Positions 12,845 through 18,539 of a stretch of 64,000 bases of DNA are shown here, piece by piece. Position 1 is the first letter of the stretch; each line of letters starts with the position of its first letter. The notes beneath the pieces are model-generated. The model was not told the DNA's origin and made no database searches. It was given only the letters and a program-made list of their open reading frames with translations. The DNA comes from Microthrixaceae bacterium (GTDB lineage Bacteria > Actinomycetota > Acidimicrobiia > Acidimicrobiales > Microtrichaceae): positions 62,001-126,000 of the forward strand of contig JAMLGK010000004.1 of the NCBI GenBank assembly GCA_023957995.1, read 5' to 3'. A program made the translations under genes and the position numbers.

Positions 12845-13375
12845 CTAGTCGCGCAGCACCTCGGTCAATCCGCTGTGGGGCGCCCAGGAACGGATCCGCA
12901 GCTGTTCACCCTGTACCTCCACGAGCGACATCGAACGGATCGACAGGCTCCACAACTCGCCGTCCATCGTGGCATCGGCACCGAACTCCTCGGTCAGCAG
13001 GCGACGAGCAGTCGTGTCATCCAGACGAACGGCCAGCGCATCGACGGTCGCGTCACCACTACCGGCGGACAGGTCCTCGTCGAGCGGTGCCGAGTGGAGC
13101 GCACAACGAGGGTCGCGCATGAGATCGGCGCCCTTGCGCGATCCCGGCATGGTCCCGATCCACATCATGTGGTCGTCGAAGCCGACGTTGGTCCCGCTGA
13201 CGCGGGGCCGGCCGTCCACGTGCAGGGTGGCGATCACGTGGTGCGGGTGGCTCTCGAAGCGTCGCTGCACCTCCGACGCGAAACCCGGTTCGGTGTCGAG
13301 CACTCCGCTCCAGGGCGTTCCGAGCCTTCCCACGCCGCTGGTGTGGGCCACCGGATCGTCGCCCGAGGCGATCAC
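12845..13375 (-). CDS. Pyridoxamine 5-phosphate oxidase-like flavin/F420-binding protein
   Basis: A 176-residue split beta-barrel protein. The pattern HVIATLHVDGRPRVSGTNV, WIGTMPGSRKGADLMRDPRCALHS is typical of actinobacterial PPOX-fold proteins that bind FMN or F420. A Glu/Asp-rich C-terminal half includes MDGELWSLSIRSMSLVEV. Substrate and cofactor cannot be assigned from sequence. It overlaps the smc stop by 4 bases, so it is translated from the smc operon. Confidence 0.82.
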   Translation of the reverse strand: MIASGDDPVAHTSGVGRLGTPWSGVLDTEPGFASEVQRRFESHPHHVIATLHVDGRPRVSGTNVGFDDHMMWIGTMPGSRKGADLMRDPRCALHSAPLDEDLSAGSGDATVDALAVRLDDTTARRLLTEEFGADATMDGELWSLSIRSMSLVEVQGEQLRIRSWAPHSGLTEVLRD

Positions 13376-16300
13376 CTGACGTCCACGACCTCTGCAGCGC
13401 GCTCGGCGACGACCTTCGACGAGCCGCCGGGTTCCATCGATACGCCGTAGAGAACGTCGGCCGCCTCCATCGTGCGCTTCTGGTGGCTCACGATGAGCAG
13501 CTGCGCGGAGCTTCGGAACTCCTGGATGAGTTCGAGGAAACGGTGCAGGTTCACATCGTCGAGCGCAGCCTCGACCTCGTCCATCACGTAGAACGGGCTG
13601 GGCCGTGAACGGAACACCGCGAACAGGTAGGCGAGTGCGGTCAGGGAACGCTCCCCACCCGACAACAGGGACAGCTTCTTGACGTTCTTGCCCGACGGTT
13701 TGGCATCGAGCTCGATGCCCGTGTTGAGGAGGTCACCGGGTTCGGTGAGCCTGAGCTGTCCCGATCCGCCGGGAAACAGCGTCTCGAACAGATGGGAGAA
13801 GTTCTCGCTGACATCCGCGTATGCGGCCGCGAACACCTTGACGATCTCTTCGTCGACGGCCTTGATCACCTTGGTGAGCTCGCGTCGCGACTGGCGCACG
13901 TCGTGCAGCTGCGACTCCAGGAACTCGTGGCGCTCGGAGAGTTCCTCGAACTCCTGCAGGGCCAGGGGATTGATCGGCCCCATCGCACGCAGGTCCCGCT
14001 GCAGTTCACGCGCCCTCGCCTGCGGTGTCTCGCCTTCTGGGAGCAGCGGACACTCGGCTGCTTCGGCCTCGGCGGGTTCGATGTCGAGTTCGGTTCGAAG
14101 TGCGGTGGTCGCGCCCTCGAGTTTCGTGCGGAGTTCTGCCTCGGCCACCTCGGTCCTGCCCAGCCGGGCACGCACCTCTTCGAGCTCGGTTTCCAGCGCG
14201 GCTCGTTCGGCGCGGAGCGCCTCGAGCCTGGCCGTCGCCTCACGGGCCGTCTCGGACTGGCGCCGACGCTCGTCGCGACGCCGTTGCAGCTCGGACTCGA
14301 TCACGGCCATGCGCGACTCGACGAATCGTCCGAGGACACCGACAGCGGAGGCCTGTGCCTCGAGGAACCCACGACGGGTGGCCGCATCGGCGGCCTCGGA
14401 GGCCAGACCCTCCAACCGAGCATCGAGGTGTTCGAGGCGATCGGTGACGTAGCGACGGCGTTCGGCCATCGCCGCGGAGCGCACATCCATGTCGGTGCGA
14501 CGGGACCGGATGTCGGCCGCGGCCGACTCCAGTGCCTCGCGACCGTCAGCCATGGCGCGAGCCTTGGCGGAGAGCTCGGCTTCCTCCGCTTCGAGCCTCG
14601 GCAGCTCGGCCACGAGGGCTTCGACGCGTTCGTTCTCGGCGCTGACCCGTTGGTCCATCTCGCCCAGCAGGCTCTCGAGGTTGGACACCTCCTCAGCAAC
14701 CTCGGCGGCATCGAGCGCCAGACGGTCTGCGGCGTCGGCGCTCCGTTGCCTCAGCGATTCGTTGGAGTCGCGTGCGGTGACCGCTTCGCTCTGGCTACGA
14801 CGCGAAGCGGCGAGCGCTGCCCGAGCTCCAGAAGCTCGGGTCCGTGCCACCTCGGCAGCTGCTTCGGTCTGCACAGCCCGCTCGGTGGCCTCCTCCAGAG
14901 CCGCCGCGGTGGCACCTGAACCAGCTGCTCCGAGACGCCATCCGGTGTCGCTGAACCGGTGGCCGTCGGTCGTGACCACCACGACGCCCGGGTCGGTCTC
15001 CAGCATCGACGCCGCTTCGTCCCAACCGCCGTCGATCACCCGGACACCCGACAGGAGTCGGTCCAGCAGTCGGTCCACTCCCGCGCGGTCACCCACCTGC
15101 TGGGCAGGGCGGACCCTGGTGCGGATGCCCCGTGGATCCGAGCCATCAACCTGTGGACCCGAGCCATGGACGACCGATGTCGGAGCGCCCAGGGCCAGCA
15201 CGGCGCCGCTGTGATCACCCTCTGCCAGCGCGGCGATAGCCGCACGGGCACTGCTGAGATCCGCGACCACGACGGCGCCGAGCGCGTCCGTCGCAGCGGC
15301 TTCGAAGGCCTGTTGGTAGCCCTGATCCACCTCGACGAGGTCGACGAGCGTACCGAGCACGCCTTCGAGCCCGGCGAGCCGTTCGGTGCCAGCTCGCTGA
15401 TGGGCGTCCTCCAACGCCAGGCCGAGGGCCTCGGCGCGGGCCCGCCAGGCGCTGTGATCTGCCTCGGCGTCGCGTTGGGCGGCCTCAGCCTCCTCGAGCG
15501 CCTTCTCGGCCAGCTCGAGCTCGGACTCGGCTGCGCGGACGGCGTCGTCCAGGCTGCCCGCACCAGCGGTCGCCGAGTCGCGCGCTGCTGTTGCCGCATC
15601 CCGTTCGGAGGTCAACCTGTCGAGCCGCTCGACCATGGCCGCGCGGCGCCTCACCAACTGTTCTCGGTCATCGGCGCTGCGCTGGGCTGCTGTTCTCATC
15701 GAGTTCAGCTCGCTGCGGACCACCGCCGCCTCACCGCTGGGGGCCGGAACCCCTTCACCCCACTCCTGTTCGAATGCCGCCCACCGTTCGGCCAGATCCT
15801 CCTCGGCGAGGTCCACCTCGGTGGCGGCCGTGGCCAGCTTGGCGAGCTCCTCGTCGATCTGTTCGGACTCCGATCGCAGCTGCGTTCGCTCGGCCTCCAG
15901 AGATGCCACGACGGCTGCGTCGACGGTCGCCTCGAGGGCGGCTCCGATGCTCCTCGATCGCTCTGCGAGCACCGCAGACTGGCCCACGGCGCGCTCACGC
16001 AGGCGCTCCAGGCGCATGAGCGAATCACCCACGTCGGCCGCGCCCAGCGCCCCGAGCTCGGCCTCCGCAGCGGTGACCCGCGCATCGAGGTCCGCCAACG
16101 AGGCCCGCAGTCGGTCGCCGCTGCCACGAAGCTCGTTCTGGGTCGACGCAGAACCCTCGAGCTGTTGGCGCAGACGTGCCAGTTCCCTGCCCGCCAGATG
16201 CACCCGCAGCGCCCGGAGCTCCGAAGCAACCTCGCCGTGACGACGTGCGGCGTCGGCCTGACGCTCCAGGGGTTTCAGCTGACGACGGACCTCGCGCAAC

Positions 16301-16881
16301 AGGTCGTTTATGCGGGTGAGGTTCGCCTCGGTCGAGGCGAGCCGGCGCTCGGAACGTTCCTTGCGTCGACGGAACTTGAGCACACCGGCGGCTTCCTCGA
16401 TGATCAGCCTTCGATCCTCGGGGCGGGCGTTGAGAACGCCGTCGATGTTGCCCTGCGAGACGATGACGTGCTGCTGGCGACCCACTCCGCTGTCGCTCAG
16501 GAGCTCCTGGATGTCGAGCAGGCGTGCCGGCGAGCCGTTTATCGCGTATTCGCTGTCCCCGTTGCGGAACAACAGCCTGCTGATCGTCACCTCGGTGAAC
16601 TCGATCGGCAGGATCCCCGCGGAGTTGTCGATGGTGAGCGACACCTCGGCGCGCCCGAGTGCCGGCCGCTTCGAGGTCCCCGCGAAGATCACGTCGTCCA
16701 TCTTCTGGCTGCGAACCGCTGACGGGGCCTGGGCGCCGAGCACCCACCCGATGGCGTCCACCACGTTGGACTTGCCCGATCCGTTGGGACCCACCACCAC
16801 GGTGACACCGGGTTCGAGGCCGAGGTCGGCCGCGTCGGCGAAGGACTTGAAGCCCTTGATCTGGAGGTTCTTCAGGAACAC
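13372..16881 (-). CDS. smc: Chromosome segregation protein SMC
   Basis: The condensin ATPase for chromosome organisation, 1169 residues. Walker A GPNGSGKSN is at residues 32-40, the Q-loop in VRSQKMDDVIFAG. Two long coiled coils rich in Glu/Ala/Arg flank a hinge around residues 500-640. The C-terminal head has LLSGGERSLTALAYLF and Walker B/D-loop YVMDEVEAALDDVN. The start is 10 bases after the Fpg-like gene. The scpA/scpB genes are not in this window. Confidence 0.98.
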   Translation of the reverse strand: MFLKNLQIKGFKSFADAADLGLEPGVTVVVGPNGSGKSNVVDAIGWVLGAQAPSAVRSQKMDDVIFAGTSKRPALGRAEVSLTIDNSAGILPIEFTEVTISRLLFRNGDSEYAINGSPARLLDIQELLSDSGVGRQQHVIVSQGNIDGVLNARPEDRRLIIEEAAGVLKFRRRKERSERRLASTEANLTRINDLLREVRRQLKPLERQADAARRHGEVASELRALRVHLAGRELARLRQQLEGSASTQNELRGSGDRLRASLADLDARVTAAEAELGALGAADVGDSLMRLERLRERAVGQSAVLAERSRSIGAALEATVDAAVVASLEAERTQLRSESEQIDEELAKLATAATEVDLAEEDLAERWAAFEQEWGEGVPAPSGEAAVVRSELNSMRTAAQRSADDREQLVRRRAAMVERLDRLTSERDAATAARDSATAGAGSLDDAVRAAESELELAEKALEEAEAAQRDAEADHSAWRARAEALGLALEDAHQRAGTERLAGLEGVLGTLVDLVEVDQGYQQAFEAAATDALGAVVVADLSSARAAIAALAEGDHSGAVLALGAPTSVVHGSGPQVDGSDPRGIRTRVRPAQQVGDRAGVDRLLDRLLSGVRVIDGGWDEAASMLETDPGVVVVTTDGHRFSDTGWRLGAAGSGATAAALEEATERAVQTEAAAEVARTRASGARAALAASRRSQSEAVTARDSNESLRQRSADAADRLALDAAEVAEEVSNLESLLGEMDQRVSAENERVEALVAELPRLEAEEAELSAKARAMADGREALESAAADIRSRRTDMDVRSAAMAERRRYVTDRLEHLDARLEGLASEAADAATRRGFLEAQASAVGVLGRFVESRMAVIESELQRRRDERRRQSETAREATARLEALRAERAALETELEEVRARLGRTEVAEAELRTKLEGATTALRTELDIEPAEAEAAECPLLPEGETPQARARELQRDLRAMGPINPLALQEFEELSERHEFLESQLHDVRQSRRELTKVIKAVDEEIVKVFAAAYADVSENFSHLFETLFPGGSGQLRLTEPGDLLNTGIELDAKPSGKNVKKLSLLSGGERSLTALAYLFAVFRSRPSPFYVMDEVEAALDDVNLHRFLELIQEFRSSAQLLIVSHQKRTMEAADVLYGVSMEPGGSSKVVAERAAEVVDVR

Positions 16882-16891
16882 TGCAGCTCCT

Positions 16892-17725
16892 TCAGACCTG
16901 GGTCTGCTCGCAGAAGTAGGTGGTCATGTTGCCGTAGCGGGCCTTCGTGATCGGACCCCGGGCTCGGGGGCTCATCTCTCCCGCCCGACCGTAGACCGCC
17001 AGGTGGTCCTTGTAGTTGCCCGGTTCGCCCTGGAGCCCGGTCCATCCGTCCTCCCCCAGGGAGGTGCCCCCGTACTTCACGGCGTCGTGCATGGTCTCGA
17101 CCACCGCTCGGTAGAGCCTGCGGATCTCCGCTGTGGCGAGCGTGTCGGGAGTGCGGTCGTATCGCAGCCCGGCGTGGAAGAGGATCTCGTCGGAATAGAT
17201 GGGCCCGATACCGACCAGGAAGCTGTCGTCCATGAGGATGCCCTTGAGCTTGCCCGACCTGCGTATGAGGGACTCACCGAACACGGTCCACGAGATGGGC
17301 TCGTCCACCGGGTCGAGGCCTAGATTCGCCAACTCGGGATGCACCTCCCGCAGGTCTTCGATCGCCACCCACTCGACGGTCGCTTCCTTCTTGGGATCGA
17401 TCAGACGCAGCTGACCACCCTGGGTGAAGGTGATCACCAGGGCCGTGTGCTTCTCCAGGTCTTCGCGCTCCTTGTTCCGCCGGAGCCTCGAGCCTTCTCC
17501 GAGCGAGATGAGCAGCTCGTTGGTCTTGTCGTAGGTGATGCCCAACAACATCCCGTGGCGCACGACCCCCGAACCCTTGGCTCCCTCCATTGCGCCCGGC
17601 AGTGCCTTGCGCGTGATGCCCGAGAGCACGCCGGCGACGGGAACCTCGACGGCCTTGATCTTCCGGTCGCCGACTTCGCGTTCGAGCTCCCGTCTCAGTA
17701 GTTCGATCTCCGGTAGCTCAGGCAT
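16892..17725 (-). CDS. Fpg/Nei-family DNA glycosylase paralogue with altered active site
   Basis: The 277-residue protein aligns end to end with formamidopyrimidine-DNA glycosylase and sits in the usual fpg position between rnc and smc. The catalytic N-terminus MPELPE is intact (Pro nucleophile and Glu). My manual alignment to E. coli Fpg shows most other key residues replaced. The beta-turn Lys56 (RRAKYLL) is Gly in VRHGMLL, and His70 (IIHLGMSG) is Ser in LISLGEGS. Asn168 (GVGNIY) is Pro in GIGPIYSDE, and the finger Arg258 is Met in GNMTTYFC. Three of four zinc-finger Cys are gone (GEMSPRARG, CEQT). The start at ATG 17725 overlaps rnc by 8 bases. It may be a zincless-finger glycosylase of changed specificity or a DNA-binding protein. 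Confidence 0.85.
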   Translation of the reverse strand: MPELPEIELLRRELEREVGDRKIKAVEVPVAGVLSGITRKALPGAMEGAKGSGVVRHGMLLGITYDKTNELLISLGEGSRLRRNKEREDLEKHTALVITFTQGGQLRLIDPKKEATVEWVAIEDLREVHPELANLGLDPVDEPISWTVFGESLIRRSGKLKGILMDDSFLVGIGPIYSDEILFHAGLRYDRTPDTLATAEIRRLYRAVVETMHDAVKYGGTSLGEDGWTGLQGEPGNYKDHLAVYGRAGEMSPRARGPITKARYGNMTTYFCEQTQV

Positions 17726-18539
17726 CTTCATCTCCGTTCGGAGCCGCGCTGTCGCGCGACTCTCCGTCGTGTTCGGTACCGCCGACGGGCGCCGTGGCGT
17801 CCTCGGCGTTCTCAGCGGTGTCTGACAGCAACCGGGCATGGGCCACTGCCGCTGCCTGCTGTTCGGCTTCCTTCTTGGTGCGACCGGCGCCGGAACCCAG
17901 CACGACACCGTCGAGGGCCACCTCGGCGGTGAAGGTCTTCTCGTGCTCGGGGCCTGATCCCCGCAGGCTGTAGCGCGGAAGTTGCGAGTAGCGGTGCGCT
18001 GCCAGTTCCTGCAGCCTCGACTTGTGATCGGTGGTGAACTCGGCGGCGGCGACGTCGTCCATGCGATCCGAGAACAGCTTGGCGATCAAGCGCCGTGCCG
18101 ACTCCAGGCCTCCGTCGATGTACACCGCGCCGAGCACTGCTTCCAGCGCATCGGCGAGGATCGAGGCCTTCTCCGCACCACCGGTGCTCTCCTCGCCCTT
18201 GCCCAGCCTCACCTCGGACCCGAGGTCGAGTTCACGCGCAACCTCGGCCAGCATCACTGTGTTGACCAGCTCGGACCGACGCCGCGCGAGGACGCCCTCG
18301 GGCGCGTCGGGGTACCTCCGGAAGAGCTCATCGGTGATGACGAGTCCGAGTACGGAGTCCCCGAGGAATTCGAGTCGCTCGTTGGAATCGGCGCCGCCGT
18401 TCTCGGAACACCAGGAGCGGTGCCTGAGTGCGAGTTGGAGCAGAGCAGGGTCACCGAAGGAGTATCCGAGCGTGCCGGAAAGGCCCGTGGAGCGCCGCGG
18501 TGCGGGCTCAGAGTCGGGCGATGACGTAGTCGACGGCAT
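17718..18539 (-). CDS. rnc: Ribonuclease III
   Basis: Double-strand-specific endoribonuclease for rRNA and mRNA processing. The signature NERLEFLGDSVLGLVITDELF begins at residue 53, with second catalytic acids in ILADALEAVLGAVYIDGG. The double-stranded RNA-binding domain (about 170-240) shows KSRLQELAAHRYSQLPRY and GRTKKEAEQQAAAVAH. An acidic 35-residue tail is extra. It overlaps acpP by 32 bases and the Fpg-like gene by 8, so the cluster is translationally compact. Confidence 0.97.
   Translation of the reverse strand: MPSTTSSPDSEPAPRRSTGLSGTLGYSFGDPALLQLALRHRSWCSENGGADSNERLEFLGDSVLGLVITDELFRRYPDAPEGVLARRRSELVNTVMLAEVARELDLGSEVRLGKGEESTGGAEKASILADALEAVLGAVYIDGGLESARRLIAKLFSDRMDDVAAAEFTTDHKSRLQELAAHRYSQLPRYSLRGSGPEHEKTFTAEVALDGVVLGSGAGRTKKEAEQQAAAVAHARLLSDTAENAEDATAPVGGTEHDGESRDSAAPNGDEDA

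Follow-up and report, generated by a model that had tools for sequence, protein, structure and literature searches.

Fpg is among the most conserved of DNA-repair enzymes, and Pro2, Glu3, Lys60, Asn174 and Arg264 are conserved in the entire Fpg/Nei family (PMC3188539). In Msm Nei2 the K51A change, at the equivalent of Lys60, abolished both AP lyase and glycosylase activity, and P2A in mycobacterial Nei2 abolished the lyase only (PMC11323726). M. tuberculosis Fpg1 (Rv2924c) is encoded next to rnc and is active as an 8-oxoG/FaPy glycosylase (PMC2734929). Mtb Fpg2 (Rv0944), which is without its N-terminal part, is an Fpg-family protein with an incomplete active site and an active paralog alongside; its gene is unlinked, and the protein is truncated in M. 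tuberculosis, whereas M. smegmatis and M. avium have it at full length (PMC2734929). NEIL1, plant Fpg and Mimivirus Nei1 form the finger hairpin without zinc ligands, but they are active enzymes in which the finger Arg and the catalytic set are retained (PMC3188539); the sequence-only reading of this DNA likewise stated that family members such as NEIL1 have equivalents of the finger Arg.

Our study concerns an fpg-type gene in the window, by which we mean the whole 64 000-nucleotide stretch of DNA that was analysed. Like M. tuberculosis Fpg1, the gene lies beside rnc in an actinobacterium, a position also shared by the rnc-linked canonical copies L251 and L285–L288, but unlike active Fpg1 its product is without the residues for catalysis. 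The protein resembles Bst MutM (1r2y) and E. coli Fpg (1k82) in its whole fold, length, H2TH, finger hairpin, core residues and PELPE start, and differs from both in lacking K60, H74, M77, R112, F114, N174, R264 and three zinc Cys (Bst numbering), in being acidic rather than basic, and in scoring below the NCBIfam equivalog cut-offs. As with Mtb Fpg2, an incomplete active site is accompanied by an active-type paralog, whereas the window type keeps the whole fold and loses point residues across a large clade. Since M. tuberculosis Fpg1 is active beside rnc, the ancestor of the locus gene very probably encoded an enzyme, and we consider it likely that the window gene descends vertically from the actinobacterial fpg of the rnc–fpg–smc operon and has turned into a conserved pseudoenzyme. 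The literature searched, which covered few subscription papers, held no description of an inactive Fpg/MutM family, a pseudoenzyme glycosylase or an Acidimicrobiia formamidopyrimidine protein of this kind. What is new, as far as our tools show, is a clade-wide Fpg pseudoenzyme that has been replaced and retained; its fold and its ancestry were already known.

Gene, fold and active-site residues

The features of the locus, all on the minus strand, are as follows.

17718..18539, minus strand: rnc (RNase III), directly upstream, with an 8-bp overlap with the fpg-type gene
16892..17725, minus strand: probable fpg-derived pseudoenzyme gene (locus copy, P0001, 277 aa; Pfam, NCBIfam, AlphaFold2)
13372..16881, minus strand: smc, directly downstream of the fpg-type gene after a 10-bp gap
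17717..17725, minus strand: codons 1–3, MPE, nucleophile Pro2 and Glu3 retained in the window member (sequence, alignment)
17549..17551, minus strand: Met59 replacing Lys60, phosphate contact/catalysis (alignments)
17504..17506, minus strand: Ser74 replacing His74 (alignments)
17495..17497, minus strand: Glu77 replacing Met77, void filler (MAFFT alignments)
17384..17392, minus strand: Lys112 and Glu114 replacing Arg112 and Phe114, intercalation loop (MAFFT alignments)
17201..17203, minus strand: Pro175 replacing Asn174, H2TH phosphate contact (alignments)
16901..16972, minus strand: zincless C-terminal finger with Ser252, Ala255, Met267 (for Arg264), Cys272 (kept) and Thr275 (alignments)

The three genes form a tight, operon-like arrangement, with the Fpg between rnc and smc as the sequence-only reading had stated. 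The protein begins MPELPEIE, and translation most likely starts at the ATG at 17725, because GGAG lies 6 nt upstream; a second in-frame ATG, two codons further upstream (MKMPELPE), directly adjoins the GGAG and is the less likely start.

Both Pfam domains, Fapy_DNA_glyco and H2TH, scored above cut-off, and the protein fell below two Fpg equivalog models, with 169.1 bits against a cut-off of 203.3 for NCBIfam TIGR00577 and 181.6 bits against 212 for PRK01103. The AlphaFold2 model (pLDDT 94.5, pTM 0.90) is a complete Fpg fold, and its best solved structural match was Bst MutM 1r2y (Z 33.8, rmsd 2.0 Å, 272 residues aligned). Pfam and this comparison together describe a Fapy_DNA_glyco and H2TH fold with a C-terminal finger, in which the beta hairpin (260–264/267–271) is retained in the model despite the missing zinc ligands.

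Residues were mapped by phmmer alignment to Bst MutM and by MAFFT alignment with >80 relatives. P2, E3 and E6 are all present, so the kept nucleophile of the earlier reading (MPELPE) stands. The phosphate-binding triad Lys60/Asn174/Arg264 is Met59/Pro175/Met267, and the base-eversion/intercalation set Met77/Arg112/Phe114 is Glu77/Lys112/Glu114. Most DNA-contact and zinc residues had been called replaced from a manual alignment to E. coli Fpg: of these calls, His70 to Ser, Asn168 to Pro and Arg258 to Met were reproduced by phmmer and MAFFT, neither of which placed canonical Lys, Asn or Arg at these sites. Lys56 is indeed lost, but the aligned residue is Met59 and not the neighbouring Gly58, which is off by one. 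The losses of M77, R112 and F114 are additions to that list. In the finger (SPRxRxPI...TYYCxQxQV), the predicted loss of three of four zinc Cys to Ser, Ala and Thr was also seen (C249 to S252, C252 to A255, C272 to T275, with C269 kept as C272), and with 1/4 Cys remaining the protein has no Cys4 zinc finger. Its finger hairpin without zinc ligands is like that of NEIL1, plant Fpg and Mimivirus Nei1, but the finger sequence differs from those of the zincless-finger Fpg/Nei enzymes and, with Met267 at Arg264, is not of NEIL1 type. Misalignment was rejected as a cause of these substitutions, as phmmer and two MAFFT alignments gave the same residues.

Conservation and descent of the locus copies

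A protein match was found in 31/33 genomes of the window's family, including 17/17 of those ≥90 % complete, and nearly all matches were full-length orthologs without stops at 53–84 % identity. A search of genome contigs added 80 orthologs, nearly all of them in Acidimicrobiales (Microthrixaceae, Candidatus Microthrix, Acidimicrobiaceae), with rnc directly upstream in 79/80 and smc downstream in 77/80. Degenerate orthologs at the same locus also occur in five families of other actinobacterial classes. Chance or sequencing error was rejected as an explanation because nearly every family genome shows this pattern in an intact ORF, and a pseudogene because intact orthologs with low dN/dS occur throughout.

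Among the 81 locus-linked orthologs, P2 is kept in 28 and is otherwise Phe, Leu, Ile, Ala or Tyr; K60 is present in 12, H74 in 11, M77 in 10, N174 and R264 in 25 each, the first zinc Cys (C249) in 16, Cys269 in 78 and E6 in 80. About 10 of the 81 are fully canonical, and canonical and degenerate forms therefore share one syntenic slot. Losses in degenerate copies fall on 8/11 conserved first-shell positions versus 21/67 other conserved positions (p=0.016), and second-shell and core positions are kept (L4, E8, R57, D110, G135, D138, K160, G171, G173, Y176, D178, E179, R190).

These data bear on the suggestion that the protein recognizes a different lesion, that is, that it is a catalytic Fpg/Nei-type enzyme in which Pro2, Glu3 and Glu6 stay and new residues serve an altered substrate. 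The three residues are present in the window protein and most family members, E6 and E3 are found in 100 % and 86 % of degenerate copies, the fold is intact, and some activity may persist on account of P2, E3 and E6, the last being invariant in degenerates. However, K60, N174 and R264, conserved family-wide (PMC3188539), are all gone; the K60-equivalent mutant of Nei2 is dead as both lyase and glycosylase (PMC11323726); and the nucleophile has been lost repeatedly in close relatives, Pro2 being missing in 40/58 representative degenerate relatives and N-terminal extensions burying residue 2 in some. No new residues are conserved at the vacated active-site positions in the alignment of degenerate copies, and the protein is acidic. 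We therefore regard an altered-substrate enzyme as improbable. Most likely the window protein has neither glycosylase nor lyase activity, and the earlier suggestion that classical 8-oxoG removal is absent is probably correct.

When the active-site columns were masked, the tree grouped the locus copies, canonical and degenerate alike, as one family, with the unlinked canonical Fpg described below (Fpg-B) forming a separate, strongly supported clade of one Acidimicrobiia and one other-class branch. By this clustering and by synteny, the window gene is an ortholog of the rnc–fpg–smc gene, and the phylogeny called for by the sequence-only reading places its set of substitutions with the canonical locus copies and apart from Fpg-B. 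Fpg-B is therefore a replacement lineage and not a recent duplicate of the locus gene; local duplication as its source was rejected, since it forms its own clade and has relatives in other classes. In a locus tree of 94 rows, 3–4 changes each are needed for K60, M77 and F114 and 3 for the first zinc Cys, compared to 12 for Pro2 and 13 for R264, which suggests that backbone and lesion contacts were lost first and that the nucleophile drifted later. Quick trees gave 2–3 transitions to the degenerate state, which would fit independent convergence in other classes, but a single clade of all degenerate copies is not rejected by the AU test (p=0.78); there may have been one to three origins.

Degenerate locus copies are under purifying selection. 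Their median pairwise dN/dS, calculated by a simple method, was 0.142 (217 pairs); canonical locus copies gave 0.295 and unlinked Fpg 0.21 when treated identically, and the window gene gave 0.13–0.16 against its nearest relatives. A remnant in decay, which persists solely because a deletion between rnc and smc would be polar, would fit the tight operon with its overlap and the scattering of active-site residues over many states, as expected without constraint. A dN/dS of 0.14, below that of canonical copies, largely refutes this explanation; ORFs are intact and full length in nearly all genomes, structural and surface positions are invariant across the order, and we consider decay very improbable.

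Several individual loci depart from the common arrangement. In L096, L100, L123 and L135 the fpg-type gene and smc are separated by an extra 1.2–1.7 kb, so that smc is displaced. In a same-genus MAG that is 55 % complete, the ortholog (L073:7001-7832; G021:C12:209460-210291) is split over two frames near codon 110–115, which may be a frameshift or an assembly error. Eight genomes of ~1 Mb in family f107 of the same class (G412, G416, G421, G426, G429, G432, G435, G438) gave no match to the window protein at E 1e-15, and the locus copy is therefore dispensable in this reduced lineage. Five MAG records (L064, L075, L099, L071, L120) have rnc–fpg–smc loci that are clearly of Acidimicrobiales type under the titles Bifidobacterium breve, Thermoanaerobacterales or Acidobacteria, and are probably mislabelled.

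A second, canonical Fpg

The search for a second, canonical fpg proposed by the earlier reading was successful. The window genome (3.54 Mb, 36 contigs) encodes three H2TH glycosylase-type proteins: the locus copy, a canonical Fpg (L001) on contig C36 and a Nei-like protein (L003) on C10. L001 is fully canonical, with the key residue set PEEKHMRFNRCCCC. It also contains an internal tandem repeat (L001:1345-2352, minus strand, contig C36) of GSEVD five times and then GSAGD, which is inserted into the catalytic domain ahead of the strand of the intercalation loop.

Co-occurrence was assessed in 61 genomes of the order that were ≥90 % complete, by TIGR00577 search checked by gene extraction. An unlinked canonical Fpg-B accompanied the locus copy in 21/25 genomes where that copy is degenerate and in 0/34 where it is canonical, none of the latter having a second Fpg above the curated cut-off (Fisher p=2.4e-12, for genomes that are phylogenetically clustered and not independent, an independent-pairs test having one usable pair). 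The remaining 2/61 genomes had neither form. Fpg-B was not detected in four degenerate-locus genomes, namely G037, which is only partly degenerate, G049, G085 and G089. In other actinobacterial classes, 23/23 Fpg-B genomes inspected (five families) have a second, locus-type copy, and every such copy examined was rnc-linked and degenerate; no Fpg-B genome without a degenerate copy was seen among those inspected. These other-class degenerate copies mostly keep the zinc Cys, which L313 has lost independently.

Judging from the intact residues of Fpg-B, repair in degenerate-locus genomes is probably performed by this protein. Annotation pipelines will label the window gene Fpg, with the genome's real Fpg elsewhere, and 8-oxoG repair should not be inferred from the conserved locus alone. 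If confirmed, this would be a large natural experiment in which a repair enzyme was replaced by another lineage and the original kept its fold and operon place but lost its chemistry.

Other unlinked family members were also observed. In family f106 of the same class (L290, L291, L293), a degenerate locus copy occurs with an unlinked Fpg other than Fpg-B, in which the finger Arg264 is Ser, Val or Thr and the remainder is canonical. L208 and L220 belong to a separate Fpg/Nei-like group in the order whose finger has apparent Cys-Asp-Cys-His ligands (CPRD...WC..HQ) and not Cys4; in L221 the ligands are Cys-Cys-Cys-Glu.

Charge and the proposed retained role

Sequence, dN/dS and the structural model together describe a probable conserved pseudoenzyme, in which the catalytic residues are lost and the fold and gene are under purifying selection. 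Degenerate copies have also become acidic. Median net charge was +6.8 (pI 9.25) for canonical locus copies and +7.5 for unlinked Fpgs, compared to −1.2 for degenerate copies (+6.8 to −1.2, p=4e-11), and the window protein is at −5.7 (pI 5.8), with relatives down to −24. The locus copy was more acidic than Fpg-B in 44/45 same-genome pairs, and the shift is therefore not proteome-wide.

The sequence-only reading had also raised DNA binding without excision, and a non-catalytic protein that still uses the Fpg groove to bind lesions, DNA structures or the nucleoid would account for the H2TH helices and two DNA-contact positions that degenerates largely retain, K258 (K/R 95 %) and Y242 (aromatic ~92 %). 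Mycobacterial Nei2 has a repair role that is not tied to lyase activity (PMC11323726). However, most phosphate contacts are gone, and the basic charge has been lost, from pI ~9.3 and about +7 to the acidic values given above, −24 in one relative, although overall net charge says nothing on the local groove. This suggestion is therefore possible but disfavoured, and general DNA binding is an unlikely retained function.

With the protein now acidic, a protein–protein role for the pseudoenzyme is more likely than general DNA binding. We envisage that Fpg-B was acquired and took over 8-oxoG/FaPy repair; that the locus copy would then have lost its glycosylase and AP-lyase activities, with K60, M77 and F114 lost at an early stage, followed by repeated later losses of Pro2, the finger Arg and Cys; and that it may have been kept since the Fpg body already had, or gained, a non-catalytic role. 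Candidate protein partners are Fpg-B, SMC and RNase III. More tentatively, in several actinobacterial classes an Fpg-fold glycosylase may have become an acidic, non-catalytic protein that acts by contacting other proteins; it might, for instance, be a partner or regulator of Fpg-B or of the SMC/RNase III operon products. The idea of a partner or regulator of Fpg-B comes from the presence of a degenerate copy in every Fpg-B genome inspected. If confirmed, the pseudoenzyme would make testable what role the Fpg body has beyond base excision and why fpg lies between rnc and smc in actinobacteria. Finally, 18 positions are conserved in canonical and degenerate locus copies alike but not in Fpg-B; they include R188, D190, E200, R202 and R206, which lie around the long helix that follows the H2TH, and suggest a locus-specific interaction surface, and with it a second role that would be older than the catalytic loss.
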